In this document: piece by piece, positions 6,485 to 43,804 of the stretch
Numbering within the stretch: the first letter of the stretch is position 1
Layout of the letters: each line of letters opens with the position of its first letter
Translations under genes and position numbers: made by a program
The notes under the pieces: generated by a model
The model's database searches: none
The model's input: the letters and a program-made list of their open reading frames with translations, nothing else
Told to the model about the DNA's origin: nothing
Assembly: GCA_009695095.1 (NCBI GenBank)
Contig: SIBQ01000001.1
Span: forward strand, 64,501-128,500
Origin: Lacunisphaera sp.
Lineage (GTDB): Bacteria; Verrucomicrobiota; Verrucomicrobiia; Opitutales; Opitutaceae
Direction: 5' to 3'
Length of the DNA stretch: 64,000 bases

Positions 6485-6523
6485 GTTCGCGATAGCTAGC
6501 GCGCAAGCTTGGTGCTCCGTGCC

Positions 6524-7897
6524 ATGCAAGCAACCAGCGAAATCCGCCCCCGCGCGTTCGGTCAGACCGGCCCAGTTGCAATCCCAGAGGCGAGCCTCGG
6601 ATTGTGCTTCCCGCACCCGGTCGTTTGGTTTCCCTTATTGGGCATCAACACCTCCCGCCTCACCGCCTACATCGACCAACCCGCCGATTGGTCCAACCCG
6701 TCGCGCTGTGTGATCATTCGCGGCTGGTGTTTCGACCCCGGTGCTGCCGTGACGGGCATCCGCCTCCGCACCCGGGACCGCACGCTGGATGGTGTCGTGG
6801 GGATGCCGCGCCCCGACGTAAAGGCCGCGCGGCCGGCCGCCCCGGACGATAACACGGGCTTCGAGATCCGCGGCACGCTGCCGGCCGGCCGCCAGGAACT
6901 GCACATCGAAGCGCACCTAGCAGACGGGTCATGGACGCCGATCCTGGAGCGCACCGTGCACATCAGACGCTCGCTTCTGCCGCTCTGGCTCGGCGGCGGG
7001 GACTGGACGGAGCTGATGTTCTTCCAGATGCCGGCGCACATGGCCTATCCGCCGCGCCCGGTGCGACCGGAAAAATTCCCCGCACCGGTAACCGCACCCG
7101 CCGCCCGGCCGAAGATTTCCATCGTCACGCCTTCCTTTCAGCAGGCCCGCTATCTCGACGAAACCATGCGCAGTGTGCTGGAACAGGACGCCACGGTCGA
7201 ATACGTTGTGCAGGACGGCGGTTCGACCGACGGCAGCGCGGAAATGATCAAGCAGCAAGCCGGCCGGCTGCATGCCTGGACCAGCGCACCCGATCAGGGC
7301 CAGGCGGATGCCATCGCGCAGGGCTTCGCCCAGACCACGGGCAGGCCCGACGATGTGATGGCTTGGATCAATTCCGATGACTACTATCAGCCCGGGGTGC
7401 TGAGCTTCGTGGCGGATTATTTCGCCGCCCACCCAGACGTCGATGTGCTTTACGGTCACCGCATCGTAGTCGACGAGGAATCGCGGGAAATCGCCCGCTG
7501 GTTCCTGCCGAAGCATGACGACGCGGTCCTACGGTTGAACGATTTCGTTCCGCAGGAAACCCTCTTCTGGCGCCGGCGGATCTGGGACAAGGTCGGCGGC
7601 CTCGACATCTCGTTTCAATTTGCCGTCGACTGGGATCTGCTCCTCCGCTTCCAGTCCGCCGGGGCCCGCATTGTGCGCGTGCCTCATTTCCTGGCCTGCT
7701 TCCGCGCCCACGCCGCCCAGAAGACCGCCGCTTTCATGCATAGCACCGGTCAGAACGAGATCACCCGACTGCGCGAACGCACCCATGGCCGCAGCTTCCC
7801 CGCCCGGGAGATCGAGAACCATCCGCTACTGATGGCTTACTTGCGGAAAAGCGCGTTCATCGGATTCGCATGGGGGCTTGGTTTTCGGGTGGGCTGA
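6524..7897 (+). CDS. GT2 glycosyltransferase with N-terminal GW/RPDV accessory domain
   Basis: The C-terminal 260 residues (from about 195) form a GT2 domain: KISIVTPSFQQARYLDETM, QDGGSTDGS for nucleotide binding and INSDDYY as the metal-binding acidic motif, then a W-rich acceptor region. Residues about 45-155 form a beta-sandwich accessory domain with the marks IIRGWCFDPG, GMPRPDV, a GF and ADGSW; the same domain family recurs in six later proteins of this window. The start is uncertain. ATG 6524 gives 457 aa, but the first 38 residues look non-coding and an in-frame TTG at 6638 would leave a more normal divergent promoter space to the minus-strand gene at 6484. Role: cytoplasmic transfer of a sugar to a growing glycan; donor unknown. 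Confidence 0.85.
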   Translation: MQATSEIRPRAFGQTGPVAIPEASLGLCFPHPVVWFPLLGINTSRLTAYIDQPADWSNPSRCVIIRGWCFDPGAAVTGIRLRTRDRTLDGVVGMPRPDVKAARPAAPDDNTGFEIRGTLPAGRQELHIEAHLADGSWTPILERTVHIRRSLLPLWLGGGDWTELMFFQMPAHMAYPPRPVRPEKFPAPVTAPAARPKISIVTPSFQQARYLDETMRSVLEQDATVEYVVQDGGSTDGSAEMIKQQAGRLHAWTSAPDQGQADAIAQGFAQTTGRPDDVMAWINSDDYYQPGVLSFVADYFAAHPDVDVLYGHRIVVDEESREIARWFLPKHDDAVLRLNDFVPQETLFWRRRIWDKVGGLDISFQFAVDWDLLLRFQSAGARIVRVPHFLACFRAHAAQKTAAFMHSTGQNEITRLRERTHGRSFPAREIENHPLLMAYLRKSAFIGFAWGLGFRVG

Positions 7898-16420: not shown

Positions 16421-16443
16421 CGCCTGTCGACCGGGCCGGCCGC

Positions 16444-18806: not shown

Positions 18807-18811
18807 ACCCC

Positions 18812-19674: not shown

Positions 19675-19788
19675 GGGCTGAGGCCAGAGGCGTGAGGAAA
19701 CTGCGCCTAGCCCGACCAGCGGCTTCTGGCTCGCCTCACCTCTTCGCTCCGCTCATACCTCAGGCCTCACACCTCAGGCCTCAATCCC
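19667..19788 (+). repeat. Two oppositely oriented CCTCA-type repeat clusters between hddC and gmhA
   Basis: Left cluster: AGGCGTGAGG at 19667-19676 and again at 19688-19697. Right cluster: CCTCAGGCCTCA at 19758-19769 and again at 19772-19783. The two clusters are in opposite orientation with about 60 bases of unremarkable DNA between. No gene lies inside. The pattern matches the ends flanking the four-helix-bundle gene 600 bases downstream and may be an empty or decayed copy. Confidence 0.75.
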
Positions 19789-20403: not shown

Positions 20404-20406
20404 GGG

Positions 20407-21386: not shown

Positions 21387-21406
21387 GCGTTTAGCTGACT
21401 GGCGCC

Positions 21407-23643: not shown

Positions 23644-24087
23644 ATGAAGTCCGTGCCTTCGGAGCCGTCCGACGTCCTTGTGCCCCGCCTCCGCCAGCAA
23701 CTCATCCTGGCCCAGGTGAGGATCATGGAATTGGAGGACACCCGCGAAAGTCTGACTCCCCGGCTGGCGGAATTGGAGCAACTGCTGCAAGCGGCCCAAG
23801 CCCTCGCGGATCTGAAAATCGACGAGGCGGCTCATCTGGGAAAAGTGCTGGCCGACCTCCAGATGCATTGCGACCACCTGCAGCAGGCCAGCCAGGAACT
23901 CACCTCCACCCGCGCTGCGCTGGCGGATTCCGCAGCCCGCTTGGCTCAACGCGACGCAGCGGTCCTCCGGCTCGAGACCACTCTCCGGCAGCTGGAAGCA
24001 GAGCTCCGCGCCATGACCTCATCGCGCAGCTGGCGGTGGACTGGCTGGTTGCGGACGCTCGGGGAAAAATCCGGCGGGAAGCCATGA
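23644..24087 (+). CDS. Coiled-coil protein with a C-terminal SRSWRWTGWLR motif
   Basis: A 147-aa protein without a catalytic motif. Residues about 15-125 are an amphipathic helix rich in Leu, Gln, Glu and Ala (LEQLLQAAQALADLKI and similar heptads), predicted coiled coil. The end reads SRSWRWTGWLR. From family knowledge, an S-x-SWR-x-T-x-PLR motif after a coiled coil commonly occurs as a linker inside large bacterial glycosyltransferases. Here it stands alone, and its stop overlaps the start of the GT4-epimerase gene (ATGA), so it may act as a separately made tether or scaffold for that protein. Confidence 0.75.
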   Translation: MKSVPSEPSDVLVPRLRQQLILAQVRIMELEDTRESLTPRLAELEQLLQAAQALADLKIDEAAHLGKVLADLQMHCDHLQQASQELTSTRAALADSAARLAQRDAAVLRLETTLRQLEAELRAMTSSRSWRWTGWLRTLGEKSGGKP

Positions 24088-29118: not shown

Positions 29119-32100
29119 ATGAGTGCCGTGTCCGCGCCCAAATTTCACCTCGACAGTCCCGCCAGCTGGCGGCCGGAGGGGGCTGGAATCGAGGTGGTGG
29201 GCTGGCTCTATCCGGGTGAAACGGGCGTCTGTGTCGACATCCGCGCGCGCGTCGACCAGCGCGCCTACCTCGGCATCTACGGCCTCGACCGGCGCGACAC
29301 GCAAAAAGCCTGCGGTGGTTCCCTCGCCGCCCTCCGCACGGGTTTCATGGCGCGCGTCCAGATCTGGCGCGGGGCGAAGGAACTGGCCCTGGACTATCAC
29401 GATGGAACGCAATGGCGTGAATTCTTCCGCACCGTGCTCGATACTTCCGGCCTGCCCGCCGACGCCAAGAAACCCCCGCGTATCCTTCGGGCCGCCCTCG
29501 TCTACCAGACTCTTCAACATCTTTATCGTCACTTTCATCGCGCGTCCTGGTCCGAGCTCTGCCGTGAAACCGACGCCGTGCTGCGGGACGTGCTCACGCC
29601 AACCAGCGACGTCGTCATCGGCGATCGTTTCCTCGGTCATATCGAGAACCCCGGCTTCTGGATCAACGCCGGCTACGACAAGTTCCGCCTCACGGGCTGG
29701 ATCTTCGGCGCCGGTCGCCACATTGCGCAGCTCAGCGCCACCACGGGCGTGCTCACCGAGAACCGCCTCGTCTACCCGAAGGACCGCCCCGACGTCGCGT
29801 CGCACCGCACCGACCACGCCAACGCCCTCAAGTCCGGTTACTACGGCCTCGTCGATATCCGCCGCGACACCCCCAGTCCGGCCAACCTGAAGATTTTTGC
29901 GGAGACCGGCGATGGCACCCGTCCCCTCGCCTTCGCCCGTCGCATGTATCTCGACCGGCGCGACGAGCACTCCGGTCCCATCACCGTCTACCGCCCGCTC
30001 TATTTCTGGAAAGTCACCGCGGCGCTCCTGCGCGGCACAATTCTGGGCCGCTTCGTATTTGATAGCTGGCAGGAATCGCGGGCCGAGATCGTCCGGCTGC
30101 AAGCTCACCTTGCCGCCACGCTCAGCCGGGGCGAACAGAAAAAAATCCCCGCGGCCATCGTTCGCCGCCGCGACCAAGACCCCTACACCCGCTGGGTCTG
30201 GCACAACCGTCTCACCCCGCGTCTCGCCGCTGTGCTCCGGCAGGACGCCGCCGCCCTCGCGCCGACCGGTCCGCTCATCAGCGTCATCGTCCCGGCCTAC
30301 AACACCCCGGAAAAATACCTGCGTGAGCTGCTCGCGTGCCTGGAAAACCAGTTCTATCCGCGTTGGGAGCTCTGCATCGCCGACGATGCCTCACCCCAGC
30401 CGCACGTCCGCCGTATCCTCGAGGAGGCCGCCCGCGGCGACCCGCGCATCAAACCCGTTTTCCGCGCCACCAACGGACACATTGCCCACGCGACCAATTC
30501 CGCGCTGGAAGTCGCTTCGGGCGAATTCGTCGCGTTGCTCGACCACGATGACCTGCTACCACCCGACGCGATGCTCCATGTCGCGGAAGCCATCACGCGC
30601 CACCCCACCGCCGGCTATCTCTACACCGACGAGGACAAGATCGACGACACCGGCCGGCGCTTCGACCCACAGCTCAAGGGCGGCTGGAGCCCGGAGATGG
30701 CGATCACGCACAATTACACCCACCATCTCAGCGTCATCCGCCGCGCCATTGTGGAAAAGGCCGGCCGGCTTCGCCCCGAGTTCAACGGCGCGCAGGACAT
30801 TGATCTCTTTCTCCGCTGCTGGGAGCTGATCGACGCGAAGGATGTCGTGCATGTGCCATTCATCGGCTACCATTGGCGCGCGCACGCCGAGAGCACGGCC
30901 ACGCGCGGCGACCAGAAGGGTTATCTCTTCGACGCCGCGCGCCGCAGCATCGCCGAGGCCGGGCGGCGCCGCTCGCTCCGCGCTGAGCCGGTGCTGCCGG
31001 AGTTCGCGAAAAATTACGCACTCTGCCTCCACCAGTTGAAATGGGATGCCGCCCTCCTCCGCGAGCACCCGGTCACGATTGTCATCCCGACAAAAAACCG
31101 CGCCGACCTCCTTCGGCCCTGCCTCGATTCCCTCGCCCGCACCACGCCGCGTGAATCCGTGAAGATCGTCATCGTGGATGACAATTCCACCGATCCGGAG
31201 ACCCTCGCCTACCTCAAGGAGCTGCCCGCGCGGGCCGATCTGCGCGTCGAGGTCGTGCGGGCCCCTTTGCCTCGGACTGAGCCGAAGGACTCAGAACCGG
31301 GAACAAACGCCGGACCAGCAGCGGCCGGCAACGGTGTCCCGTCCGAAGGCTTTAACTACTCGCGGCTGGTCAATCTCGGCACCGCGCATGCCGACACCCC
31401 GCTGGTGCTCCACCTCAATAATGATATTGAGGCGCTCGCGCCCGGCTGGCTCGAGGATCTGGCCGGCTGGCTCACGGTGCCCGGAGTCGGTGTCGTCGGC
31501 GCCAAACTCCTTTATCCCGATGGCACGTTGAATCACGCGGGTATTTCCATCGGCCGCGAGGACGGTCTTCCGCATGTGCTTTTTGAAAAGGAACCCGCCG
31601 AGGACCTCGGTTATCTCTTCCTGCCGCACACCGCACGCAACGTCATCGCGGTCACCGGCGCGTGCCTGCTCACCCGCACCGAACTCTACCGCCGGCTGGA
31701 CGGTTTCGACGAGGCGAAGCTCCAGGTCGCTTACAACGATGTCGATTACTGCCTGCGCGCCGCGGCGGCCGGCTATCGGACGGTTTATTCCCCGCAAGCC
31801 GTCCTGCGCCACGTTGGCAGTGCGTCGCGCGGCCACACCTATGCTGAACGCGAACACGTCGAATATCTCGCCCGCCACGGCAGCCACCGCGACCCCTACC
31901 ACAGCGAGACGCTCGACTTCCCGCCGCGCAACCTTCCGCTCAATCCCCACCACCAGCGCTACGCGCAGAGCCCGCGCGCGTTCCAGGCCCTCGTGCTCAC
32001 GCACAACCTCAACTTCGAAGGTGCGCCGATCTTCATCTTTGAGCTCGCGCGCTTCCTCGCCGAGCAGCCGGGTATGAAGGTCACCATTGCCTCGCCGCAG

Positions 32101-33147
32101 GACGGTCCGCTGCGGCAGCGCTTCGAGGAGCTCGGCCTGGCGGTTGAAATCTGGGACGCGTCCGCTCTCATGGACGCGAAGACCCCGGTCGGATTTGCTG
32201 CCGCGCTGAAAAATTTTGCCACGGTCCATCCATGCCCCGAGGTTGAGGTCATTGTCTGCAACACCATGCTGACCTTCTGGGGCGTGCACCTCGCCGCGCA
32301 GCTCGGCAAGTCCGCTGCGCTCTACATTCACGAAAGCAACACTGTGAAGCGCTTCTTCCAGCCGCTGCTGCCGCCGATGATGCATGCGACCGTGGAGGAA
32401 GTGTTCCGGCTCGCCACCCGCGTCGTGTTCACCGCCCGGGCCACCCGCGCCATCTTCGAGGAGCTGAACATCAAGGACAACTTCCGCACGCTCGCCAGCT
32501 GGGTCGACTTTACCCGCATCGAAAAATTCGCCACGACCCACGATCGCGCGGCGTTGCGCCGCAAGCACGGGCTCGACCCCGCCGCCTTGCTCGCCGTCAA
32601 CATCGGTTCGGTCTGCGAGCGCAAGGGCCAGCACATCTACATCCGGGCCATCGACCTGCTCGCAAAGGAGCTGCCCACCCTCCATTCCGGCAGGAAAATC
32701 CAGTGGGTCATGGTCGGGGCGCGCGAGGGCCTCTACATGGAGACGCTCCGCGAGGACATCCAGCTCATGGGCCTGCACGATGTGAAAATCTTCCCGGAAA
32801 CCGCCGACATCTACGATTTCTACCGGCTGGCCGACATCCTGGTGTGCACGAGCTTCGAGGAATCCTTCCCCCGCGTGCTGCTGGAGGCGATGGTGTTCGG
32901 CACGCGCATCGTCAGCACCGACGTCAACGGCATCCCCGAGATGGTGACCAACACCGACGAGGCGTACCTGGTGCCCGCCGGCGACCCCTTCAAGCTCGCC
33001 GCCGCCCTCAAAAAGGCGCTCGCCGATCACTTCGCCGGCAATCATAAGATGCTCTCGATGGCCCACGCCCGCGCCGCCCGCAACTACCACCACACCCGCT
33101 CGCTGCCCCGGCACCTGCAGGTGGTCCGCGAGGCGTGGCTCGGCTGA
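29119..33147 (+). CDS. Giant modular glycosyltransferase: two accessory domains, GT2, GT2, GT4
   Basis: A 1342-aa protein. Residues about 7-117 (VVGWLYPGE) and 165-285 (RLTGWIFGAG, KDRPDVA) are tandem GW/RPDV accessory domains. The first GT2 (about 385-620) has SVIVPAYNTPEKYL, DDASPQPHVRR and an intact DHDD metal motif. The second GT2 (about 651-900) has TIVIPTKNRADLL, VDDNSTDPETL and LNNDIEA. The GT4 domain (about 957-1340) has LTHNLNFEGAPIFIFELARF, YIHESN, CERKGQH and the donor motif FEESFPRVLLEAM. A single protein could add three sugars in order. An in-frame insert (31268-31349) is absent from its paralogue at 39923. ATG 29119 starts just before the first domain; the upstream extension is non-coding in look. 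Confidence 0.92.
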   Translation: MSAVSAPKFHLDSPASWRPEGAGIEVVGWLYPGETGVCVDIRARVDQRAYLGIYGLDRRDTQKACGGSLAALRTGFMARVQIWRGAKELALDYHDGTQWREFFRTVLDTSGLPADAKKPPRILRAALVYQTLQHLYRHFHRASWSELCRETDAVLRDVLTPTSDVVIGDRFLGHIENPGFWINAGYDKFRLTGWIFGAGRHIAQLSATTGVLTENRLVYPKDRPDVASHRTDHANALKSGYYGLVDIRRDTPSPANLKIFAETGDGTRPLAFARRMYLDRRDEHSGPITVYRPLYFWKVTAALLRGTILGRFVFDSWQESRAEIVRLQAHLAATLSRGEQKKIPAAIVRRRDQDPYTRWVWHNRLTPRLAAVLRQDAAALAPTGPLISVIVPAYNTPEKYLRELLACLENQFYPRWELCIADDASPQPHVRRILEEAARGDPRIKPVFRATNGHIAHATNSALEVASGEFVALLDHDDLLPPDAMLHVAEAITRHPTAGYLYTDEDKIDDTGRRFDPQLKGGWSPEMAITHNYTHHLSVIRRAIVEKAGRLRPEFNGAQDIDLFLRCWELIDAKDVVHVPFIGYHWRAHAESTATRGDQKGYLFDAARRSIAEAGRRRSLRAEPVLPEFAKNYALCLHQLKWDAALLREHPVTIVIPTKNRADLLRPCLDSLARTTPRESVKIVIVDDNSTDPETLAYLKELPARADLRVEVVRAPLPRTEPKDSEPGTNAGPAAAGNGVPSEGFNYSRLVNLGTAHADTPLVLHLNNDIEALAPGWLEDLAGWLTVPGVGVVGAKLLYPDGTLNHAGISIGREDGLPHVLFEKEPAEDLGYLFLPHTARNVIAVTGACLLTRTELYRRLDGFDEAKLQVAYNDVDYCLRAAAAGYRTVYSPQAVLRHVGSASRGHTYAEREHVEYLARHGSHRDPYHSETLDFPPRNLPLNPHHQRYAQSPRAFQALVLTHNLNFEGAPIFIFELARFLAEQPGMKVTIASPQDGPLRQRFEELGLAVEIWDASALMDAKTPVGFAAALKNFATVHPCPEVEVIVCNTMLTFWGVHLAAQLGKSAALYIHESNTVKRFFQPLLPPMMHATVEEVFRLATRVVFTARATRAIFEELNIKDNFRTLASWVDFTRIEKFATTHDRAALRRKHGLDPAALLAVNIGSVCERKGQHIYIRAIDLLAKELPTLHSGRKIQWVMVGAREGLYMETLREDIQLMGLHDVKIFPETADIYDFYRLADILVCTSFEESFPRVLLEAMVFGTRIVSTDVNGIPEMVTNTDEAYLVPAGDPFKLAAALKKALADHFAGNHKMLSMAHARAARNYHHTRSLPRHLQVVREAWLG

Positions 33148-33156
33148 GTGTCACCG

Positions 33157-33213
33157 ATGCACGAGACGCCGTTAAGCTTCAACCATCGGGAAAGCCCGGC
33201 TGGATCAACCTGA
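33157..33213 (+). pseudogene. 5' stub of a paralogue of the modular GT gene at 35392
   Basis: The first 19 codons (MHETPLSFNHRESPAG, then a stop) match the start of the gene at 35392 (HETPFSFSHLESPA) at both protein and DNA level. Beyond that, similarity stops and a short non-coding stretch leads to the methyltransferase-type gene at 33304. I read this as the leftover start of a lost or displaced modular gene. It has its own ATG while the intact gene uses GTG. Confidence 0.75.
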
Positions 33214-33303
33214 GGGTTCCCCTACCCCAGCCGGTTCGCCCTTGCTCCCAACGCCAGCCGCCATGCGCCCCCCTGCCCGCCGCCGCCGCGCTGCTCCCGC
33301 CCC

Positions 33304-35145
33304 ATGATCGAAATCCCGGGCTGGCAATTCGCCGTGGAGGTCCACCCCCCCGACTGGTGCTTTCCCGCCGGCAAATCCTGGATCGCCGGCTGGATCCGGC
33401 CGGAGGCCGGCCGGGTGATCACGGATGTTCGCGCCCGAATCCACCATCGCGTCATTCTCGGCCTTTCCGGACTGCTCCATCCGGCGTTCGTTGAAAAATC
33501 CCGGGAGCACGAGCACCCCGATCCATTCGGCCCGGGATTTTCCTTTCTCCTCACCCCGCAGCCCGGCGCAACATTGCTGCGGCTGGAACTCCGCGATCGG
33601 TCGGGCCGGTGGACGGAGTTTTTTCGCACAAAAATTTTCCCTGCGCCGGACGGGCCCGCTTCCCCCCCGGCACCCAGCCTGATTGAGTCACTTCGCCGGC
33701 TGGTCACGGTTTTGTTGAAACAACGGTTGCGCAACCCCCTGCGCTCCTGGTCCGATCTGGCCGACAATCTCGTGGCGGCCTTGGTGGCCGAGCCACTGAA
33801 CGCCCACCCCAGCCCACCTTTCATCGGCGCACTGGAGGAACCACGCGACATCGGCCGGCGGCGAAACGGTTGCATCCCGGTGACTGGGTGGCTGGCTCAC
33901 CGCACGGCCAAAATCACCCGGCTCCTGGCGGTCATCGATTCGCTTCCCGTTATATCCCTTCCGCATGGCCTGGCGCGTCAGGATATCCCCGGCGTTTTCC
34001 CCGCACTCCGTGACCAGGCCGACCTGGCCTTTGTCGGAGAGATTGCCCTGCCGGTCGATTTCGCTGCGCCGGTTTTGCTCAAGCTTTTTGCCGAGCTCGA
34101 CAACGGCGAGAGGCACCTGGCTTTTACCCGGCGCTTCACGCCGCAGCCCCACGGCGATACCGGACAGATGCCGTCCTTGGTCCCGGGATTCACCTTCGCC
34201 TGCGCCGTCTGGGCCCTGCACCGGGCAGCCGGCCGATACGCGCTGTCCCGCCGGGGCCTGATCCGGGCGGCGCGCTCCTTCTGGTCCAGTTATCAGGCCA
34301 TGCCGGCCTACCGCCCCGCCCGGGCCTGGCGGGAAAATGCGTGGCTCCGCTTTCCCGCCGGCGCGACTCGCCCCGCGGATGTCAGCAAGACCGTGGCCAC
34401 GGACGGAGTGCCCGCCACCACCGTCATCGCCCCAGCCGACGACATGCTGGTGCGCGACGCCGTGCAGTATTTCCAGATTGGACGGGAGGCGCTGGCGCTG
34501 GTGCAAGCGGCGTGCGCCCTGGCCGGCTGCGAACGAGTTGAGGCGATTCTGGATCTGCCCAGTGGCCACGGCCGCGTGGCCCGCTGGTTGCGCACCGCGT
34601 ATCCGGCGGCAAAGCTGGTTGTGAGTGATACCCAGGGATCAGGAGTGAACTTTTGCATCGAGCATCTCGGTGCGACCGGCGTGCAGGCCACCGTTGACGG
34701 CAGCCACTGGGGAGCCTTGACCGGACCCTATGATATCATCTGGTGCGGCTCGCTGCTGACACACTTCGGCCGGGATCAGTGGCTGGCCCACCTCCGGCGA
34801 TTCGCCGAACGGCTCACGCCGCACGGCGTGCTGGTGTTCACCACGCACGGCCTGCTCGCCCTGGATAAACTGCAAACCGGTGAAAAAGATTATGGCCTGC
34901 CGGAGGCCGAGGTCACGCGCCTGTGCGCCTACGCGTTGGCCGAGGGCTTCGGTTATGCCGATTATCCCGCTACACCCGGCTATGGCATTTCCGTCTCCCA
35001 CCCGGCCTGGATCCGGGCGCTGATCTCCCGGGAAACCGAACTGCAGGTCCTAGCCATTAACGAGTCAGCTTGGGACCAGCACCAGGATGTGGTGGTGTGC
35101 GCCCGCCACGGATCAAGCACCCAGCCGAGGGTTGACCTGCCATGA
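33304..35145 (+). CDS. Two accessory domains + SAM methyltransferase
   Basis: A 613-aa protein whose first half is a close paralogue of the gene at 37630: domain one (GWQFAVEVHPPDW, SWIAGWIRPE) and domain two (IPVTGWLAHRT, LARQDIPGVFP, FAELDNGERHLAF). Where the paralogue continues into a GT4, this one has a linker and then a class I methyltransferase (about 378-600) with ILDLPSGHGRVARWL as the SAM loop and WCGSLLTHFGRDQW after strand 4. So the same targeting half carries a different enzyme. Likely job: methylate the same glycan that the neighbouring GTs extend, perhaps as a chain cap; that is inference. Confidence 0.9.
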   Translation: MIEIPGWQFAVEVHPPDWCFPAGKSWIAGWIRPEAGRVITDVRARIHHRVILGLSGLLHPAFVEKSREHEHPDPFGPGFSFLLTPQPGATLLRLELRDRSGRWTEFFRTKIFPAPDGPASPPAPSLIESLRRLVTVLLKQRLRNPLRSWSDLADNLVAALVAEPLNAHPSPPFIGALEEPRDIGRRRNGCIPVTGWLAHRTAKITRLLAVIDSLPVISLPHGLARQDIPGVFPALRDQADLAFVGEIALPVDFAAPVLLKLFAELDNGERHLAFTRRFTPQPHGDTGQMPSLVPGFTFACAVWALHRAAGRYALSRRGLIRAARSFWSSYQAMPAYRPARAWRENAWLRFPAGATRPADVSKTVATDGVPATTVIAPADDMLVRDAVQYFQIGREALALVQAACALAGCERVEAILDLPSGHGRVARWLRTAYPAAKLVVSDTQGSGVNFCIEHLGATGVQATVDGSHWGALTGPYDIIWCGSLLTHFGRDQWLAHLRRFAERLTPHGVLVFTTHGLLALDKLQTGEKDYGLPEAEVTRLCAYALAEGFGYADYPATPGYGISVSHPAWIRALISRETELQVLAINESAWDQHQDVVVCARHGSSTQPRVDLP

Positions 35146-35391
35146 CGGCCGCCCCATTTGCTCGGGATGTCCCTGTCAACTCCGGCGCGCCCTGCTCGGC
35201 CCCTGCCGGTGGTCCGCGGGGCGTGACTGGGGTGAAGCTCATGCTTTCGAAAATGGATTGTCACTCTGCGGGCCGCAAATCCATGTCCTCTTGTGGGCGG
35301 GCTGCCCCCACCCCGCGAGGCATGGGCCGCGCGAGCTGAAATCAGCAGGGTGAGGGCCCCCGCCCGCAACAAACCTATCTGAATAACACCA
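35146..35391 (+). other. Intergenic leader before the modular GT4 gene, with an inverted repeat
   Basis: This 246-base gap holds ATGGATT (35253-35259) and its inverse AATCCAT (35278-35284), a GC-rich hairpin-like stretch around 35295-35330 with no T tract, and TATCTG at 35376-35381, eleven bases before the GTG start at 35392, which could be a -10 box. No protein of convincing composition is encoded. Confidence 0.45.
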
Positions 35392-37626
35392 GTGCACGAG
35401 ACGCCCTTCAGCTTCAGCCACCTTGAGTCCCCCGCGCCCCGCGCGGCGCGGCCGCCGGGTCCGCATGTGATCCGCGGCTGGGTGTGGCCCAAGCCGGGCG
35501 GACATTTCGTCAACGTCCGCGCGTGCGTGGAGGGCCGCGTGTTTCCCGGCGTCCACGGCCATCCGCGCGCCGATCTCGCCGCGCATTTTCAGACGGGCCG
35601 GCGCTACGCCCTCGCTGAATTCTCCATCGCGGTGGAACTGCCCCCCGGTCCGATCGAGGTCACCCTGGAAGTGCTGGAAATCGAGGGCCACTGGTCGCCG
35701 TTTCAAACCTTCAGCTATCACGTCGCGGCCCGCACCGCGCCGGCCGCGATCCCGCCGCACCCGCGTCCACTGCGCTGGCACGATTTCGGCCGTGGCCTGG
35801 ACTTCCTGCTGCGGGAACGCCGCACCCGGCCCGACGCCGCGTGGGTAAAGCTGGCGGCGGAACTGGCGGCCGACCTGCCCGTTGCCCAGGACCAGCTTTA
35901 TCCGCCCGACCCCTTCATCGGACACGCCGACGAGCCGGCGGTCGTGAACCGTAGCCGCTTCGGCCTGCTGCCGGTCGTGGGCTATATTTTCCACAAGACC
36001 GGCCGCATTCAGAGGCTTTGGGTAACGGCGGACCTGCAGGCGTTGCAACCGCTCACCCTCGGCCGGGCCACCGCCAACATCGTCCCGCACTTCCCGCTAT
36101 ACCCCGCGGCCGGCACCTCCGGCTACGAGGGTTATGTGGACGTTCCCCCGCAGCTGCCCAACCCGGTGACCCTGCGGCTTTATACGGAAATGCCCGACGG
36201 TTCGCTGCACCTTGTGCAGGTCCGCACGACCCGCCGGCACGACGCCGAGGAGGAAAAATATCCCTACCCGGCGCTGTCGGCCGACGATTTCACCGCCGCC
36301 CTGACGGCCTGGCAGAGCGCGCTGTGCGTGCGCGGTTTCAGCGTGACGCAGGACGCCGATCTACACACCGAGATCGAGCGCCTGCGCGCCGTCGCCACCC
36401 GCCCGACGGCCACGCCGCGGACTCCGCCGCCCGCGCTTGTCCCGGCCCGCACGGTTCGCCCGCTGAGCCGCGTCATCCTCGCCAGCCACAACTTCAACCT
36501 CGAGGGCGCCCCGCTCTTCCTGCTCGACCTCGCGCGTCATCTCGCCGCCTCCGGCGTGGCGCTGACCGTGGTGAGCGCCAGCGACGGCCCGCTGCGCGAA
36601 CGCTTCGCCGCGTGCGGCGCCAAGATCGTGATCGTTGATGCCGCGCCGGTGTTTCGCGCCGGCAGCGTGGCCGACGCCGAGGCCGCCGTTGCCGCGCTCC
36701 GCCGTTCGTTTGATTTCACCGCGGCCGATCTGGTCATCACGAATACCTTCACCACGTTCTGGGCCGTGCAGGCCGCGAAGGCCGCCGGCCAGCGCGTCCT
36801 CTCCTACGTCCACGAAAGCACCAGCCCCGCCGCCTTCTACGGCGGCAGCGTGCATCCCGTCGTCGTGGCCCTTGCGGATGAGGCCCTCACGCTGGCCGAC
36901 GCCGTGTCCTTCACCAGCGACGCCACGCGCCGTTACCACGCCGGCCCGGACCGGCCGGTGCAGGCCGTGCTCACCCCCGGCTGGGTGGATGTGCGCGCGA
37001 TTGACGCGTGGCGCGCCGCTCATCCGCGCGAGACGCTGCGGGCGCAATTCGGAATGAAACCCGGCGAACTGCTCGTCACCAACATCGGCACCGTCTGCGA
37101 CCGCAAGGCCCAGGTGAGCTTCGCCCGGGCCGTGGACTTGTTCCGGCGCCGTTATCCCGCCCTCGCCGCGCGCACCAGGTTCATTTTGCTCGGCGGCCGC
37201 GCTTCGCCCTTCGATAATTTGCTGCGCGAAGTTCTCGCCGATCTCGCCATTCCGAATCTGACGGTGCACCCCGAGACCCCGGATTTCCTCGGCTACTACG
37301 TCGCCGCCGACCTGACCGTCTGCTCCAGCTACGAGGAATCCTCCCCACGCGTCGTCCTCGAGGCGATGGCCTGCGGCACGCCGCTGCTGGCGTCCAACAT
37401 CCCCGGCATCAGCGAACTCGCCCGCGACGGCCTCGAGGCCACGCTCATCCCCGCCGGCCACACCACGGCGTGGACGGAAGCGCTCGCGCGACTGCTCAAC
37501 TCTCCGGACATCGGGCAACAACTGGCCGCGCAAGCCCGCGTCCGCATTGAAACGCTTTTCGCCGCCGACCTCGTCCTCCCCCAGCACACCGCACTCGCCA
37601 GCGCCGTGGCGGCCGGCCAACTTTAA
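35392..37626 (+). CDS. Two accessory domains + GT4 glycosyltransferase
   Basis: A 744-aa protein starting at GTG. Domain one is at about 5-115 (VIRGWVWPKPG, HPRADLAAHFQTG), domain two at about 165-285 (LPVVGYIFHKT, GRATANIVPHFP, YTEMPDGSLHL). The GT4 domain (about 360-740) shows ILASHNFNLEGAPLFLLDLA, YVHEST, TVCDRKAQVSF, and the donor-site motif YEESSPRVVLEAMACGTPLL. The accessory half is more divergent than those of its neighbours. Intact throughout; likely transfers one sugar from a nucleotide donor in the cytoplasm. A stub of a sister gene lies 2.2 kb upstream. Confidence 0.91.
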   Translation: MHETPFSFSHLESPAPRAARPPGPHVIRGWVWPKPGGHFVNVRACVEGRVFPGVHGHPRADLAAHFQTGRRYALAEFSIAVELPPGPIEVTLEVLEIEGHWSPFQTFSYHVAARTAPAAIPPHPRPLRWHDFGRGLDFLLRERRTRPDAAWVKLAAELAADLPVAQDQLYPPDPFIGHADEPAVVNRSRFGLLPVVGYIFHKTGRIQRLWVTADLQALQPLTLGRATANIVPHFPLYPAAGTSGYEGYVDVPPQLPNPVTLRLYTEMPDGSLHLVQVRTTRRHDAEEEKYPYPALSADDFTAALTAWQSALCVRGFSVTQDADLHTEIERLRAVATRPTATPRTPPPALVPARTVRPLSRVILASHNFNLEGAPLFLLDLARHLAASGVALTVVSASDGPLRERFAACGAKIVIVDAAPVFRAGSVADAEAAVAALRRSFDFTAADLVITNTFTTFWAVQAAKAAGQRVLSYVHESTSPAAFYGGSVHPVVVALADEALTLADAVSFTSDATRRYHAGPDRPVQAVLTPGWVDVRAIDAWRAAHPRETLRAQFGMKPGELLVTNIGTVCDRKAQVSFARAVDLFRRRYPALAARTRFILLGGRASPFDNLLREVLADLAIPNLTVHPETPDFLGYYVAADLTVCSSYEESSPRVVLEAMACGTPLLASNIPGISELARDGLEATLIPAGHTTAWTEALARLLNSPDIGQQLAAQARVRIETLFAADLVLPQHTALASAVAAGQL

Positions 37627-37629
37627 GCC

Positions 37630-39864
37630 ATGCTTGAGAATGCCGGCTGGCAGTTCGACGTGGAAGTCCACCCCGCCGACTGGCGCTTTCCGGCCGGCCC
37701 GTCGTGGCTGGCCGGCTGGATCTTCGCCGGGGAGAACCGCTTGGTCACCGACCTGCGCGCCTGGATCGACGGCCGGCCGTTCCTCGGTCTGCCCGGCCTG
37801 CCGAAGCCGGGCCTCGACGAGAAGTTTCTCCACCGGCCCGGCCCGCCGTATGCCGGCTGGGTGATCCAAGTCACACCGCACCGCGGCGCGGCGTTGCTCC
37901 GGCTCGAGGCCCGCGACCCGCGCGGCGTCTGGACGGAATTCTTCCGCACCCCCATCATCGTCGCGGCCGACGCGCCCGAGTGCCCGCCGCCGGCCCCGTT
38001 CAGCGCCCGGCTGACGGAACTCGTGCCGCCGTTGCTGCGGCTGCACACGCAGCGCCCGCGCACGCCTTTTGCCACACTGGCCGACGAGGTCGTGTCGGCC
38101 GCGCTCGCGGTGCCGCTGAACTCGCTGCCCAACCCGCCGTTCCACGGCGCGCTTGAGGAGCCGCGGGACACCGGCTGGTTGCGTTACGGCCGGCTGTCTG
38201 TCTCCGGCTGGCTCGCGCACCGCACCGGAATAATCAAGCGGATCACCGCCCTCGCCGACGCCGTGCAGGAATCCCCGCTGCTGCACGGCATCGCTCGCCC
38301 CGACATTGGGACGATTTTCGCCGACCTGCCCGGACGCGAGCATTCCCAGTTCGTCGGCCACGTGGACCTGCCGGCCAACCAGAGCGCGCCGGCCTTGCTG
38401 AAAGTCTTTGCCGAGCTGGAGAACGGGGAAAAACACCTCGCCTTCGCACAGCGTTTCACGCCGCGCGTCATCGCCGGCGCCGACACGCCGCTGCCGCCGC
38501 TCTCGAAGCTGACATTCGCGAAGGCGCTGTGGGCGCTGCGCGGTTCGGCCCAACGCCACGGCCTGCCGATGGGCGCGCGCGACGCACTCGTCGTCGCCGC
38601 GAAAAGCGCCTGGTCCGCCTACCGCACCGAGGCTCCCGCCAAAGTGCGACACCGTCGCCCGCCTCCGGTTTCAGCGGACACCGGCAATGACAACTCGCTC
38701 CTGCGCGTGCTGGTCGTGACGCACAACCTGAATTTCGAGGGCGCCCCGTGGTTCATCTTCGAGCTCGCCCGGCATCTCCACACCCAGCCCGGCATCAGCG
38801 TGCGCGTACTCTCGCCGCAGAATGGCCCGATGCGCCGGGTGTTCGAAGGCGCTGGCATGCCGGTTGAGGTCGTCGACCTGTCCGCGGCATTCGCGGCGGC
38901 CTCGCCCAAGGAGTTCCACGCCGCGCTGCGCGCCACGGTGAAAACCGACTGGAGCCAGGTCGACCTGCTCGTCGCCAACACGATGGTTTCATTCTGGGCC
39001 GTGCATCTCGCCCGGGCTGCGCAGAAGCCCGCCCTGCTCTATGTGCACGAGAGTTCGGCGGTCCGCCGTTTCTTCGAGCCGGTGCTGAAGCCCGCGCTGT
39101 TTCCGCTCGTGGAGGAGGCGTTTCGCGGCGCGGCGCGCGTCGTGTTCACCGCCGATTCGTCGCGGATGGTGTTCGATTACCTCGGCGATGGCGGAAATTT
39201 CCACCTGCTGCCGAGCTGGGTGGACGTCGCGCGCATCGACGCCTTCGCGGCCGCGCACGACCGCGCCGCGCTGCGCCACAAGCACGGGCTCGATCCCGCC
39301 GCCACGCTGCTCGTCAACATCGGCTCCATTTGCGAACGCAAGGGCCAGCACATCTACCTGCGTGCCGCCGAGCTGCTGCGACCGGAGCTGCACTACACTT
39401 ATCCCGAAAAGAAAATCCAGTTCGTCATGGTCGGCGCGCGGCCGGGCCTCTACCTCGATTCGCTCAAGCAGGAGGCCGAACTGCACGGGCTCGACAACGT
39501 CGTCTTCCTGCCCGAGACCGGCGAGATTTATGACTTCTACCGGCTGGCCGACATTTTTGTCTGCACCAGTTTCGAGGAATCCTTCCCGCGGGTGCTCCTG
39601 GAGTCGGCGGCGTTCCGCCTGCCGATCGTCAGCACCAACGTCAACGGCATCGCCGAGATGCTCGCCCCCGACGAGGCCTGGCTGACCGCGCCCGGCGACC
39701 GCTACCAGCTGGCCGAGGCGGTGAAGGCGGCGCTGGCCGCGCATTTCACCGGCGACACCGGCCGCGCCGAGCGGGCACGCGCCGCGATCGTGCGCCGGTA
39801 CCACGCAGGCAATTCCCTGCCGCGGCACCTCGCGCTGGCCCGTGAGGCGGCCCGGCGCACCTGA
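37630..39864 (+). CDS. Two accessory domains + GT4 glycosyltransferase
   Basis: A 744-aa protein three bases after the preceding stop. Domain one (GWQFDVEVHPADW, SWLAGWIFAGE) and domain two (LSVSGWLAHRT, IARPDIGTIF, FAELENGEKHLAF) closely match the methyltransferase gene at 33304. The GT4 domain (about 357-740) has VVTHNLNFEGAPWFIFELA, YVHESSAVRRFFEP, SICERKGQHIYLRA and FEESFPRVLLESAAF. Its GT4 half resembles the C-terminal domain of the 29119 protein more than that of its neighbour at 35392, so accessory and catalytic halves have different histories. Confidence 0.92.
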   Translation: MLENAGWQFDVEVHPADWRFPAGPSWLAGWIFAGENRLVTDLRAWIDGRPFLGLPGLPKPGLDEKFLHRPGPPYAGWVIQVTPHRGAALLRLEARDPRGVWTEFFRTPIIVAADAPECPPPAPFSARLTELVPPLLRLHTQRPRTPFATLADEVVSAALAVPLNSLPNPPFHGALEEPRDTGWLRYGRLSVSGWLAHRTGIIKRITALADAVQESPLLHGIARPDIGTIFADLPGREHSQFVGHVDLPANQSAPALLKVFAELENGEKHLAFAQRFTPRVIAGADTPLPPLSKLTFAKALWALRGSAQRHGLPMGARDALVVAAKSAWSAYRTEAPAKVRHRRPPPVSADTGNDNSLLRVLVVTHNLNFEGAPWFIFELARHLHTQPGISVRVLSPQNGPMRRVFEGAGMPVEVVDLSAAFAAASPKEFHAALRATVKTDWSQVDLLVANTMVSFWAVHLARAAQKPALLYVHESSAVRRFFEPVLKPALFPLVEEAFRGAARVVFTADSSRMVFDYLGDGGNFHLLPSWVDVARIDAFAAAHDRAALRHKHGLDPAATLLVNIGSICERKGQHIYLRAAELLRPELHYTYPEKKIQFVMVGARPGLYLDSLKQEAELHGLDNVVFLPETGEIYDFYRLADIFVCTSFEESFPRVLLESAAFRLPIVSTNVNGIAEMLAPDEAWLTAPGDRYQLAEAVKAALAAHFTGDTGRAERARAAIVRRYHAGNSLPRHLALAREAARRT

Positions 39865-39879
39865 CCGGCTTCGCCGGGC

Positions 39880-39909
39880 TTGCGCCCCACCCCGCCCTTC
39901 GCCTTAGTT
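39880..39909 (+). promoter_or_regulatory. Possible promoter before the second giant modular GT gene
   Basis: TTGCGC at 39880-39885, 18-base spacer, TTAGTT at 39904-39909, then 13 bases to the GTG start at 39923. As at 29078, the -10-like box sits so close to the start that the message would have almost no leader. Confidence 0.35.
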
Positions 39910-39922
39910 CAGCGTTCCAGCC

Positions 39923-42900
39923 GTGAACGAAAACGACGCCTACATTTTCGATGTCGAGGAGCCCCGCGAGTGGGTGTTTGCCGGCGAGCCCGTCTGGATC
40001 AGCGGCTGGTTTTTGTCGAAGGCCGGGGCGGTGTTTTCCGACGTACGCGCCGTCATCGATGGCCTCCCGCACCTGGGCATCCTGGGGATGCCTCGCCCGG
40101 AGATTGAGCAGCGCCACCGCGGGCACACCGGGCTGCCCCACGCCGGTTTTCTGCTCCGGGTCAATCCGCCCCGCTCCGCCCGTGAGCTCCGCCTCGAGCT
40201 GCTCGACGCCGGTCACCACTGGGTCGAGATCTGGCGCACGGCGATCAAGGTACGCCAAGGCGGCAAGCGCGGTGGCCGCTATAACCTCAAGCTTCTTCCT
40301 GACCACCTGCACCGTCTGCTGCAAGCCCGCCGTACCGATCCGGCCGCTGAATTGGCCCCGCTCGCCGATGTCCTCGCCCTCGAAGGTGCGGCCGTACCGC
40401 TCGACACGCTGCCCAACCCGCCGTTCTTCGGCGCGCTGGAAAAGCCCGAACTCGTCGGCGGCACGCAATATGGCAAGGTGCGCGTCGAGGGCTGGATCAT
40501 CCACCAGAAGCAGCGCCTTGTCCGCCTGACCGGCAGCACCCACCCGCTGGTCGAGAACGATTTCGTATACGGCAACCTGGAACGCCCCGAGGCCGCGCAG
40601 CTTTTCCCCGGCCATCCCTACGCGGCCCGCTCACAATATTTCGGCCTGCTCGACATCGATGAGAACGCGCCCGGCCCGGCCGTCATCAAGATGTTTGCCG
40701 AGTTGGAAGACGGCACGAGGCACCTCGTTTTTGCCCGGCGCTTCCATGCCCGCGCCTGCCACATCTGGGAGCGACCGCTGCCCGCGTTCAACTGGGGCGA
40801 GTTTCTCCAGTGCGTCCTGGCCCTGCTGGGCGCCGCCCGCCGGCATCGGCAGCAGCTCGGTTCCGTCACCGCACAATGGCAGGCACTCCAGGCCGCCTCC
40901 GCCCTCTACCGACGCGAAGCACCGGCTGTCGTCGCGCCCGACGATTCGCGGCAGGATCAGTATTTGGCGTGGTTGCGCACCAACCGGCTGACTCCGCGTC
41001 TGCGGCAGGCGCTGGCCGGTTCGGCGAAGAACATTGCCCACGGCCCGCGCTTCACCCTGCTGATCGACCCGGCCGGCTGCACCGACACTCACCTGCGCGA
41101 ACTGGCGCTGTCCCTGCAGGCGCAGATCTATCCGCACTGGGAGGCATGGTTTATCGGCGAAAAGCCACCCGCGGGCGCCGATGCCCGTTGCAAATCCGAG
41201 CGCTGTGCCGGCCTGAAGGACTTTGCCCGCGCCCTGAACTCGGCGGCCGACCAGGCCCGGGGCACACACCTTACGCTGCTGCCCGGCCATTCGCGACTGT
41301 CCCCGGACGCGCTGCTGGAGATTGCCGAGCGAATCGTGGCGCGGCCGGAACTCGAACTCGTCTACACCGACGAGGACCTGATGGACGACAGCGGCGCGCA
41401 GTCGGCGCCGAAGTTCAAGCCGGCCTGGAGTCCCGCGCTGGCGCTCTCCGGGCTTTCCCCCGGCCAGCTCAGTTTTGTGCGGAACGACCGATTCGCCGCA
41501 GTCGGCTCGTTCCGCGACGAATACCGCCTGGTGCCGTGGGCCGACGTGCTCTGGCGCGTCGGCGACAAACTCGCGCCGGACAACGTTGCGCAGGTGCCGC
41601 TCGTCTGCCATCATGCCCGCGCTGAAGTCTCCCGCCACGTCGAGCCGAGCGATCCCTCGGTCGAGCAAGCGCGGAAGGCGCTGACCGAGACCATGACCCG
41701 ACGCGACTGGGCCGCCGCCCCGTTTTTGCCGGAGACCGCGCACCACCGCCGGCTGAGCTACCACCAGTTGCGCTGGGACCAGAATATCCTCGCCCGCCTG
41801 CCGGTCACCATTGTCATTCCCACGCGCGACAAGCTCCACCTGCTGCAGGAATGCGTGGAGTTGCTCGAGGAGACGGTGGACTGGCGCCACGCGAAGCTCG
41901 TCATCGTCGACGACCATTCGCGCGATGCCGACGCCGTGCGCTACCTCGAGCAGATTCAAAAGCGCGACGACCTCCGGTGCAAGGTCGTCCGCCCGGCGGA
42001 CCGCGGCGCGCCGTTCAATTACTCCCACCTCGTCAACCTCGCCCTGCCGCACGTGGACACGCCGCTGGTGCTGCACCTGAACAATGACGTCAACGCGCTC
42101 GAGCGCGGCTGGCTCGAGGAGATGGCCGGTTGGTTCACGCAACCCGACGTCGGCGTGGTCGGCGCGAAGCTGGTCTATCCCGACCGGACGCTCAACCACA
42201 CCGGCATCATCATCGGGCCGCACGGCGGCCTGGCCGACACACCCTACGCGAAGGTCGCGGAACGCGACGTGCCCGGGGTCGAGTGGCACGCGGCGGCCCG
42301 CGAGGTCTCCGCGGTGACCGGCGCCTGCCTGATGGCGCGCACGTCGGTCTACCGGGAGCTCGGCGAGTTCGACGAGAAGGATTTCGGCGTGGCCTACAAT
42401 GATGTGGACTTCTGCCTGCGCGTGCGCGCCGCGGGCCACCGCATCATCTACACCCCGCAGGCGCAGCTCATGCACTGGGGCAGCGCGACGCGCGGCGTGA
42501 CGTTCGACGAGGCCGAGCACATTGCGTTCGTGCGGCGCTATCCCGCGTATCGCGACCCCTACCTCAGCCCGAACTTGGAACTGGCCGGCGGCGGCCTGCG
42601 CTGTCGCGGGGCTGGGACCGTCCGCCCAAATCGCGCCGGGAAGCTGCGGCTGCTCCTGCTGACGCACAATCTCAACCTGGAGGGCGCGCCGCTTTTCCTG
42701 CTCGAGTATGCGACCTACATGGCGCACGAGGCGGGCTTCAGCCTCGAGGTCCTCTCCTCACAGGACGGCCCGCTGCGCGCCGCCTATGAGGCGCTCGGCG
42801 CGCACATCACGTTCATCGACGCCGCGCCGGTTTACCTGGCCGGGGACGAGGAGATTTTCCACGGCCGCGTGGCCGATATCGCCCACCAGGTTGACTGGGA

Positions 42901-43804
42901 ACACATCGACCTCGTGGTCTGCAACACGCTGGCGAGCTTCTGGGGCGTACACCTCGCCCGGCGCGCCGGCAAACCGTCGCTGTTCTATATCCACGAGAGC
43001 ACGTCGATTTTCCGGTTCTTCGAGTTGAAGCTGAAACTGGAATTGCATCACCTCGTCGGCGAGGCCTTCGCCCGGGCGACCCGGGCGCTCTTCCTCTGCG
43101 AGGCCACGCAGACCTACTACGAGGATCACAACCTGCACGGCAATTTCCGCCTGGTGTCGAGCTGGATCCAGCTCGACGTGATGGAGGAATTCCGCCGCGC
43201 GCACACCCGCACCGGGTTGCGCCGCAAACATGGATTCAAGGACGACGAGGTCGTGATCGCCAACATCGGCACGGTCTGCGAGCGGAAGGGCCAGCATATC
43301 TTCCTCCGGGCCATCGAGCACTTCAACCGGCAGCAAGGCGGCGGGCCTCCGGTGCGCTTCGTGATGGTGGGCGCGCGGCCGGGCATCTACCTCGACCTGC
43401 TGCAGCGTGACATCGCCCGGCTCGGCCTGGCCAGCGTCACGTTCGTGCCGGAGACCCGCGAGGTGTTTGATTTCTTCCTGCTGGCCGATCTGTTCGTGTG
43501 CACGAGCTTCGAAGAGTCCTTCCCCCGCGTGGTGATGGAAGCGATGGTCTTCCGCACCCCGATGGTCACCACCGACGTGCACGGCATCGCGGAGATGATC
43601 GGTCAACGGCAGGAGGGCTATCTGGTGAAACCTGGCGACGTCGAGGGTCTCTCGCGGATGATGCGCACCTGCCTCGCCAAGGAGCGCAGCGGCAAATCGC
43701 TCACGCCAGCCGCCTATTCGAAGGCGCTGCGCCATTACGATTCCACCAAGGTGCTGCCCCACCACGCCGCACTGGCCCGCGAAGCGGTGCTCGGGCACGA
43801 GTAA
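39923..43804 (+). CDS. Giant modular glycosyltransferase: two accessory domains, degenerate GT2, GT2, GT4
   Basis: A 1293-aa paralogue of the 29119 protein with the same order. Accessory domains: about 8-115 (VWISGWFLSK, GMPRPEIEQ) and 150-275 (RVEGWIIHQK, LERPEAAQLFPG, FAELEDGTRHLVF). First GT2 (about 376-590): the nucleotide-binding strand reads FTLLIDPAGCT instead of VIVPAYN, and the DHDD metal site is replaced by LPGHSRLS, so it has probably lost catalysis, though the later YTDEDLMDD is kept. Second GT2 (about 627-850) is intact (TIVIPTRDKLHLL, LNNDVNA). GT4 (about 910-1290) is intact (LTHNLNLEGAPLFLLEYA, YIHEST, CERKGQH, FEESFPRVVMEAM). Start is GTG. Confidence 0.92.
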   Translation: MNENDAYIFDVEEPREWVFAGEPVWISGWFLSKAGAVFSDVRAVIDGLPHLGILGMPRPEIEQRHRGHTGLPHAGFLLRVNPPRSARELRLELLDAGHHWVEIWRTAIKVRQGGKRGGRYNLKLLPDHLHRLLQARRTDPAAELAPLADVLALEGAAVPLDTLPNPPFFGALEKPELVGGTQYGKVRVEGWIIHQKQRLVRLTGSTHPLVENDFVYGNLERPEAAQLFPGHPYAARSQYFGLLDIDENAPGPAVIKMFAELEDGTRHLVFARRFHARACHIWERPLPAFNWGEFLQCVLALLGAARRHRQQLGSVTAQWQALQAASALYRREAPAVVAPDDSRQDQYLAWLRTNRLTPRLRQALAGSAKNIAHGPRFTLLIDPAGCTDTHLRELALSLQAQIYPHWEAWFIGEKPPAGADARCKSERCAGLKDFARALNSAADQARGTHLTLLPGHSRLSPDALLEIAERIVARPELELVYTDEDLMDDSGAQSAPKFKPAWSPALALSGLSPGQLSFVRNDRFAAVGSFRDEYRLVPWADVLWRVGDKLAPDNVAQVPLVCHHARAEVSRHVEPSDPSVEQARKALTETMTRRDWAAAPFLPETAHHRRLSYHQLRWDQNILARLPVTIVIPTRDKLHLLQECVELLEETVDWRHAKLVIVDDHSRDADAVRYLEQIQKRDDLRCKVVRPADRGAPFNYSHLVNLALPHVDTPLVLHLNNDVNALERGWLEEMAGWFTQPDVGVVGAKLVYPDRTLNHTGIIIGPHGGLADTPYAKVAERDVPGVEWHAAAREVSAVTGACLMARTSVYRELGEFDEKDFGVAYNDVDFCLRVRAAGHRIIYTPQAQLMHWGSATRGVTFDEAEHIAFVRRYPAYRDPYLSPNLELAGGGLRCRGAGTVRPNRAGKLRLLLLTHNLNLEGAPLFLLEYATYMAHEAGFSLEVLSSQDGPLRAAYEALGAHITFIDAAPVYLAGDEEIFHGRVADIAHQVDWEHIDLVVCNTLASFWGVHLARRAGKPSLFYIHESTSIFRFFELKLKLELHHLVGEAFARATRALFLCEATQTYYEDHNLHGNFRLVSSWIQLDVMEEFRRAHTRTGLRRKHGFKDDEVVIANIGTVCERKGQHIFLRAIEHFNRQQGGGPPVRFVMVGARPGIYLDLLQRDIARLGLASVTFVPETREVFDFFLLADLFVCTSFEESFPRVVMEAMVFRTPMVTTDVHGIAEMIGQRQEGYLVKPGDVEGLSRMMRTCLAKERSGKSLTPAAYSKALRHYDSTKVLPHHAALAREAVLGHE

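Follow-up and report, generated by a model that had tools for sequence, protein, structure and literature searches.

Why should five consecutive enzymes with different catalytic ends all begin with the same doubled domain? The question is posed by a stretch of 64,000 nucleotides from a Lacunisphaera sp. genome (2.14 Mb, 41 contigs, 91.5% complete), namely positions 64501-128500 of contig C30 (SIBQ01000001.1), referred to below as the window. The doubled domain is termed the doublet and its two copies D1 and D2. Together the five genes represent one local version of a wider, ordered Opitutaceae locus with near-fixed gene order. Each enzyme has a doublet of its own kind, which is constrained and under purifying selection. 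As a tentative answer, the doublets may be enzyme-specific docking modules that act on a growing lipid-linked chain, in an ordered gene series followed by export through an ATP-binding cassette (ABC) transporter. The genes and domain copies are as follows (window coordinates; GT, glycosyltransferase).

29119..33147, + strand: HEAD, doublet + GT2a + GT2b + GT4 (Pfam; doublet, order and catalytic motifs; frame also open from GTG 29029)
29140..29445, + strand: D1 copy of HEAD (profile match)
29629..29955, + strand: D2 copy of HEAD (profile match)
33304..35145, + strand: M, doublet + methyltransferase domain (Pfam Methyltransf_25, 30.8 bits, cut-off 27; doublet tree)
33322..33642, + strand: D1 copy of M (profile match)
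33817..34143, + strand: D2 copy of M (profile match)
35392..37626, + strand: alpha, doublet + GT4 (Pfam; trees)
35410..35727, + strand: D1 copy of alpha (profile match)
35911..36240, + strand: D2 copy of alpha (profile match)
37630..39864, + strand: beta, doublet + GT4 (Pfam; protein used for both AlphaFold models)
37648..37965, + strand: D1 copy of beta (profile match)
38137..38463, + strand: D2 copy of beta (profile match)
39923..43804, + strand: TAIL, doublet + GT2a without catalytic motifs + GT2b + GT4 (Pfam GT2 match over the second GT2 only; motif loss)
39941..40258, + strand: D1 copy of TAIL (profile match)
40421..40753, + strand: D2 copy of TAIL (profile match)
6509..7897, + strand: gene outside the run, single domain copy (6659-6967) + GT2 (Pfam; profile match)
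24084..26906, + strand: gene outside the run, two diverged copies (24099-24404, 24423-24725) without helical spacer + GT4 + NAD-dependent epimerase (Pfam; profile match)

The five genes of the run lie on one strand and are separated by 156, 246, 3 and 58 bases. A sequence-only reading of the window had placed them correctly, and the catalytic ends it had named (GT2-GT2-GT4, methyltransferase, GT4, GT4 and GT2-GT2-GT4) were recovered with Pfam. Its description of the last protein as degenerate was right in that motifs have been lost, but the loss is confined to the first GT2. HEAD GT2a matched TarS chains in the PDB by sequence over its catalytic part (5tz8, E 5.9e-9), and a structure search with the whole beta protein returned ordinary GT4s (HepE, PglA, BshA). 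No PDB relative was found for the methyltransferase part of M.

Thirteen related beta-sandwich copies had been claimed for the window, two of them at the start of each of the five proteins, and profiles, shuffles and hhalign comparisons agree with this. In a leave-one-out test each copy scored 35.4-82.4 bits with the profile of the other 12, and the best of 1300 letter-shuffled copies reached at most 21.3 bits. The profile of all 13 matched 13 places in the source genome, all within the window (threshold E <= 0.001; 20 of 73 first-look candidates scored). D1 and D2 matched each other in hhalign at 81% (E 1.2e-5) with the window copies alone and at 95.9% (E 6e-9) with 157 and 158 copies from relatives; against the three copies of genes 6509 and 24084 they reached 98.0% and 95.9%, respectively. 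The 13 copies are accordingly true relatives of one another. The motif pattern that had been proposed for them is less general than the kinship itself, as R-x-D is absent from the first copies at 33304 and 37630. By pairwise scores the five D1 copies are closest to one another and so are the five D2 copies; the doublet was therefore probably duplicated as one unit.

Identity with a known domain was rejected, as Pfam, NCBIfam and PDB sequence searches lent it no support. With the seven proteins as queries, Pfam gave no match to any of the 13 copies at E <= 1, and no NCBIfam model lay over them among the matches listed (the first 25 for five of the seven proteins). Profile searches of PDB chains returned no carbohydrate-binding module (CBM), the best hits being unrelated proteins at E 0.039 and 0.085. 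A relation to Wzt_C was likewise discarded, since D1, D2 and the single copies compared with 20 Wzt-like C-termini gave hhalign probabilities of at most 1.5%. On plasmids, neither the single copy (6656-6982) nor the beta doublet had a relative at E <= 0.01, a scan of viral contigs with the single copy found none, and neither did a first scan of genome contigs. In the literature no title or abstract start described the domain or the locus; most subscription journals lie outside the searched set. By these searches the doublet is a domain family without a database model found.

AlphaFold2 modelled the beta doublet (108 sequences) as a 343-residue unit with a predicted local distance difference test score (pLDDT) of 91.8 and a predicted template modelling score (pTM) of 0.88. 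The predicted layout is a sandwich at ~2-108, a helix pair at 128-159, a second sandwich at 171-282 and a second helix pair at 293-334. The whole beta protein gave pLDDT 89.9 and pTM 0.85. The doublet is thus confidently predicted to be one rigid unit with a generic immunoglobulin-like (Ig-like) fold. The 50 PDB matches listed by Foldseek were generic Ig-like pairs with TM-scores by query of up to 0.24, headed by a Pyrococcus amylase, with antibodies making up many of the others; viral structure matches of the doublet were of the same generic sandwich kind. The predicted fold, an Ig-like beta-sandwich, agrees with a CBM but is not specific to CBMs.

The wider occurrence of the doublet was followed in 95 genomes, including the window's own. 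The doublet profile matched 49 of them, and among the matches listed at least 23 of the 95 had a match spanning most of the doublet. Two locus sets were scanned with domain profiles. The first comprised 20 stretches from 16 of the genomes with such a spanning match, six with small contigs being left out. The second comprised 37 loci from named records, eight of which repeated contigs already in the first set and were excluded; among the loci that remained, several are separate contigs of one genome. This set was drawn by one pattern at the D2 end and its titles are all verrucomicrobial, so it is uninformative on other phyla. The labelled rows amounted to 31 TAIL, 30 HEAD, 31 beta (plus two cut), 25 alpha, 14 X, nine delta (one counted twice because L054 and L055 overlap), five beta2, five M, three gamma and six cut pieces.

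Clusters with HEAD and TAIL on one stretch had all doublet genes on a single strand (19 of 19). Their architectures were HEAD-alpha-beta-TAIL (eight), HEAD-TAIL (four), HEAD-alpha-beta2-beta-TAIL (three), HEAD-alpha-beta-X-TAIL (two), HEAD-alpha-M-beta-TAIL (one) and the HEAD-M-alpha-beta-TAIL of the window (one). These whole clusters hold zero to three doublet enzymes between HEAD and TAIL; split clusters add gamma and delta and have up to five middle genes (G047, G003). X followed beta in each of the 13 cases where the preceding gene is visible and came before TAIL in 10 of 14, the remaining four stopping at a contig end or cut piece. The order is not absolute because the position of M varies: the window differs from L039, and L082 places M before beta2. 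G012 and G017 carry two cluster halves far apart, the TAIL of L087 is read in two overlapping frames, and other genes fill gaps of 0.8-4.9 kb between some cluster members.

Single-domain relatives occur in other Opitutaceae (L032-L038, L103, L106-L109). They have the same kind of domain directly before GT2a-GT2b in frames of ~1300-1450 residues, but only one copy each; the view is limited to ~3.3 kb per locus, in which a run of paralogues is neither seen nor excluded. In another family of the class, L105:1-2361 has three tandem domain copies before GT2a-GT2b. The combination of two diverged copies, GT4 and epimerase in one protein at 24084-26906 is found by profile also at L094:672-3539 and L095:683-3550. 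At L093:1038-4073 the epimerase is encoded by the following gene rather than in the same protein, a difference suggestive of gene fusion or fission.

Does the doublet serve all these enzymes in the same way? Median identities of the window genes to their orthologues were 78.2% (doublet) and 74.4% (GT4) for HEAD (23 rows), 64.7 and 68.4% for alpha (22 rows), 68.4 and 69.5% for beta (29 rows), and 68.0 and 70.1% for TAIL (23 rows). Between paralogues within a locus, median identities were 26.1-35.1% for the doublet versus 39.5-43.1% for GT4 (pair classes of n = 14, 41, 46 and 37); in single S-S paralogue pairs the doublet/GT4 difference reaches -1.4 points. In ten window comparisons the ratio of nonsynonymous to synonymous substitution rates (dN/dS, from a simple Nei-Gojobori count) was 0.07-0.22 for the doublet domains, below that of GT4 in nine of ten comparisons for D2 and eight of ten for D1. 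The idea that the shared domain addresses one common acceptor or partner is weakened by these figures: paralogous doublets have diverged beyond their GT4s, and orthologous ones are about as conserved. A generic tag for one common ligand is disfavoured because the doublets are gene-specific and about as constrained as the GT4s.

Trees of doublets and of GT4s recovered mostly the same orthologue groups, with two kinds of departure. Firstly, the doublets of the five methyltransferases make up a single clade (100/100), with which two beta2 doublets group (97/99), all nested in a beta/beta2/M group (97/95) whose other members bear GT4. In the approximately unbiased (AU) test, a placement of M just outside all beta/beta2 rows was not rejected (p 0.216). 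In either topology a GT4 would have been replaced by a methyltransferase if GT4 is ancestral, as is suggested by its presence in gamma, alpha, HEAD and TAIL. The doublet tree with M rows warns of long branches between HEAD and alpha. Secondly, the five beta2 GT4s form one clade (100/100), and grouping their doublets together was rejected (AU test, p 0.0003; both p values are guides only, the tree groups having been named with the first trees already in view). The beta2 doublet is of the beta lineage in G019, G059 and L071. Since the beta2 doublets and GT4s differ in history, doublets would have moved between two GT4 paralogues. Judged from the trees, module exchange is real but rare and of two kinds, a methyltransferase on a doublet of GT4 lineage and doublets passed between GT4 paralogues. 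The run had been described as a combinatorial glycan-assembly set. The set does vary between strains and exchange is genuine, but free swapping was rejected, as the trees are mostly congruent and gene order is near-fixed, the two kinds of exchange excepted.

Some catalytic parts of the set may have lost their activity. Two doublet-GT2 proteins occur together in 19 loci. The upstream one carries ADD(A/N)S, DHDD and QD(I/L)D in every case, and the downstream one (TAIL GT2a) carries none of the three in any, in one case with just 81 residues in view. HEAD and TAIL were here labelled by position alone, independently of the motifs. An alignment of 58 GT2a domains split 29 / 29. The frame of TAIL GT2a is open and constrained (dN/dS 0.31-0.41 in three comparisons), with a median identity of 53% among 24 TAILs versus 83% among 23 HEADs. 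The C-terminus of X is homologous to the cluster GT4s (hhalign 99.7%, E 4e-27); E-x7-E and RKGQ are absent from all 13 uncut copies, X having been selected by low GT4 score. With a looser expression, E-x7-E was found in three of three gamma and 17 of 25 alpha GT4 rows, six alpha rows giving no text and two an unrelated stretch. Seven X doublets form one clade (100/99), and one X pair gave dN/dS of 0.35 (D1), 0.21 (D2) and 0.20 (pseudo-GT4). The loss of motifs suggests that TAIL GT2a and X are inactive, and that X is a second subunit, one carrying a pseudo-GT4. The X of L042 is still above two Pfam GT cut-offs, which speaks against a dead X.

The setting of the locus bears on what the enzymes build. 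About 40 kb upstream of HEAD and on the same strand, ABC2_membrane (80.5 bits) and ABC_tran (84.8 bits) were matched, with Wzt_C at 28.2 bits, below its cut-off of 30.4. These matches mark an ABC2-type permease and a Wzt-like ATPase, a Wzm/Wzt-type exporter such as belongs to ABC-transporter-dependent polysaccharide loci. The cluster contig is longer than 100 kb in 13 genomes, and in 11 of these the ATPase has its best relative on the same strand, 15-70 kb upstream; ten further genomes have shorter contigs and were uninformative. A nucleotide-sugar dehydrogenase and a transaldolase are encoded in the window above NCBIfam cut-offs. HddA-, GmhA- and GmhB-like enzymes, a DltB-like acyltransferase and a sugar-1-phosphate nucleotidyltransferase (best MurU, then others including HddC) fall below them. 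The sugar genes hint at a heptose-type sugar.

On this evidence the docking of enzymes on their acceptor is put forward tentatively. An ordered gene series would build and modify a surface polysaccharide, perhaps O-antigen-like, inside the cell before ABC export. The rigid Ig-like pair, as an acceptor-docking module of CBM type that would bind sugar, would bring each enzyme to the particular stage or epitope of the growing lipid-linked chain that belongs to it, and the action at that site would be set by the catalytic end. HEAD with its three transferases would synthesise the backbone, alpha and beta would add one residue each, and methylation would fall to M. TAIL has two intact transferases besides a GT2 without motifs and would finish or bridge the chain, the dead GT2 being retained as a binding or spacing part. 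Acceptor docking is preferred over subunit docking mainly because one doublet lineage serves both GT4 and methyltransferase, and because beta2 can take a beta-lineage doublet while beta stays. Such sharing is easier to explain by two enzymes that recognise similar acceptors than by two subunits that both require the same seat.

Should the doublets indeed be docking modules, they would form a natural, re-wirable scaffold for glycan synthesis, in which evolution replaced a glycosyltransferase by a methyltransferase on one and the same docking part and also passed a docking part from one transferase to another. Docking would also give a handle on acceptor choice and addition order in multi-enzyme sugar polymerases.

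Several observations weigh against acceptor docking. No sugar-binding site was identified in the doublet, its fold match is generic, and no relation to a known CBM or to Wzt_C was found. The motif-less subunits (TAIL GT2a, X) have retained their doublets, an observation just as compatible with a complex. The beta and beta2 doublets of one locus, even those of one lineage, are just 51-65% identical. The nearby exporter is absent in two of the 13 long-contig genomes, lying ~350 kb off in G017 and on another contig in G030.

A possible alternative, and a close rival, is that the doublets are subunit-docking modules, by which HEAD, the middle enzymes, X and TAIL would form one multienzyme complex with a seat for each, the motif-less GT2 and GT4 being structural. 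It is kept close by these motif-less subunits, which have long been retained (TAIL in 19 of 19 clusters by position, X in 13 of 13 uncut copies). Doublet conservation is gene-specific, as it would be for seats, gene order is near-fixed on a single strand, and polymerase complexes are described for Klebsiella O-antigen systems in the accessible part of PMC11231755. Membership is variable, however, with four of the 19 whole clusters consisting of HEAD and TAIL alone, and the same doublet lineage occurs on two enzymes of one cluster.

A bolder reading is unlikely: a position-coded polysaccharide assembly line, in which an undescribed family of paired Ig-like domains would be a docking code that orders live enzymes and pseudo-enzymes on one growing chain while strains insert, lose and re-tip modules between a fixed HEAD and TAIL. 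The doublets would then resemble the docking domains that order the modules of modular synthases.

It is more doubtful still that the doublet merely serves homo-oligomerisation or membrane orientation of the enzyme that carries it and plays no part in the choice of acceptor or partner. In TarS the tandem Ig-like domains are the trimer interface, and their removal kept activity and lowered processivity, according to the accessible text of PMC5156392; a helix pair also follows each predicted sandwich. A generic oligomerisation part, however, need not differ so much between paralogues. Ordinary tandem duplication, with the doublet as inherited baggage and a run without common logic, is very improbable, for although the genes do stem from one ancestor by duplication, the doublets are under purifying selection, are retained on methyltransferase and X, and are conserved across genera.

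Acceptor docking has a precedent in TarS, a GT2 of wall teichoic acid, in that its tandem Ig-like CBMs affect processivity (accessible part of PMC5156392). Like the proteins described here, TarS is a glycopolymer-modifying glycosyltransferase with two consecutive Ig-like domains, which for the doublet are predicted. The TarS domains are C-terminal and, as far as that text goes, belong to one gene only, whereas the Opitutaceae pair is N-terminal, has helical spacers and recurs in a run of different enzymes. No sequence relation between the TarS Ig-like domains and the doublet was found in the PDB search.

WsaE/WsaF of Geobacillus S-layer glycan assembly are similar in combining multi-module glycosyltransferase and methyltransferase enzymes, a GT4 partner and Wzm/Wzt export in one locus (accessible part of PMC2943079). 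In that system GT domains are fused to the methyltransferase, which is reported to be a cap, whereas M of the window stands alone on its doublet; that portion of the paper mentions no doublet domain. In the ABC-dependent O-polysaccharide polymerases of Klebsiella and E. coli (WbdA/WbdD, O4, O7), catalytic modules are likewise spread over several proteins, with methyl terminators in some and a carbohydrate-binding Wzt, and chain length is set by a coiled-coil ruler protein. No doublet is reported in the accessible part of that source (PMC11231755).

Further features surround the run. Upstream of the window, L116:4583-9537 encodes an ABC permease, a Wzt-like ATPase and a sulfotransferase-family protein. 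The sugar-nucleotide genes (HddA-, GmhA- and GmhB-like, transaldolase, DltB-like) occupy 12305-22126 and may serve GDP-heptose supply and O-acylation. A second accessory domain of ~130-150 residues, unrelated-looking and without a Pfam match, is present in seven copies at 26909-28999, 45177-47027 (three copies), 47446-49497, 49504-51588 and 51624-53984. It is part of large membrane proteins or lies next to them, and three of these proteins match PMT_2. Frames 43914-45158 and 45177-47027, 18 bases apart, jointly resemble the intact gene 49504-51588, which points to a genomic frame break or an assembly error. A short PMT-like frame at 3820-4755 has an N-terminus similar by eye to that of a longer frame just upstream of the window (L116:18078-20000). 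Past the short frame the + strand is riddled with stop codons; the copy in the window is therefore possibly a remnant.

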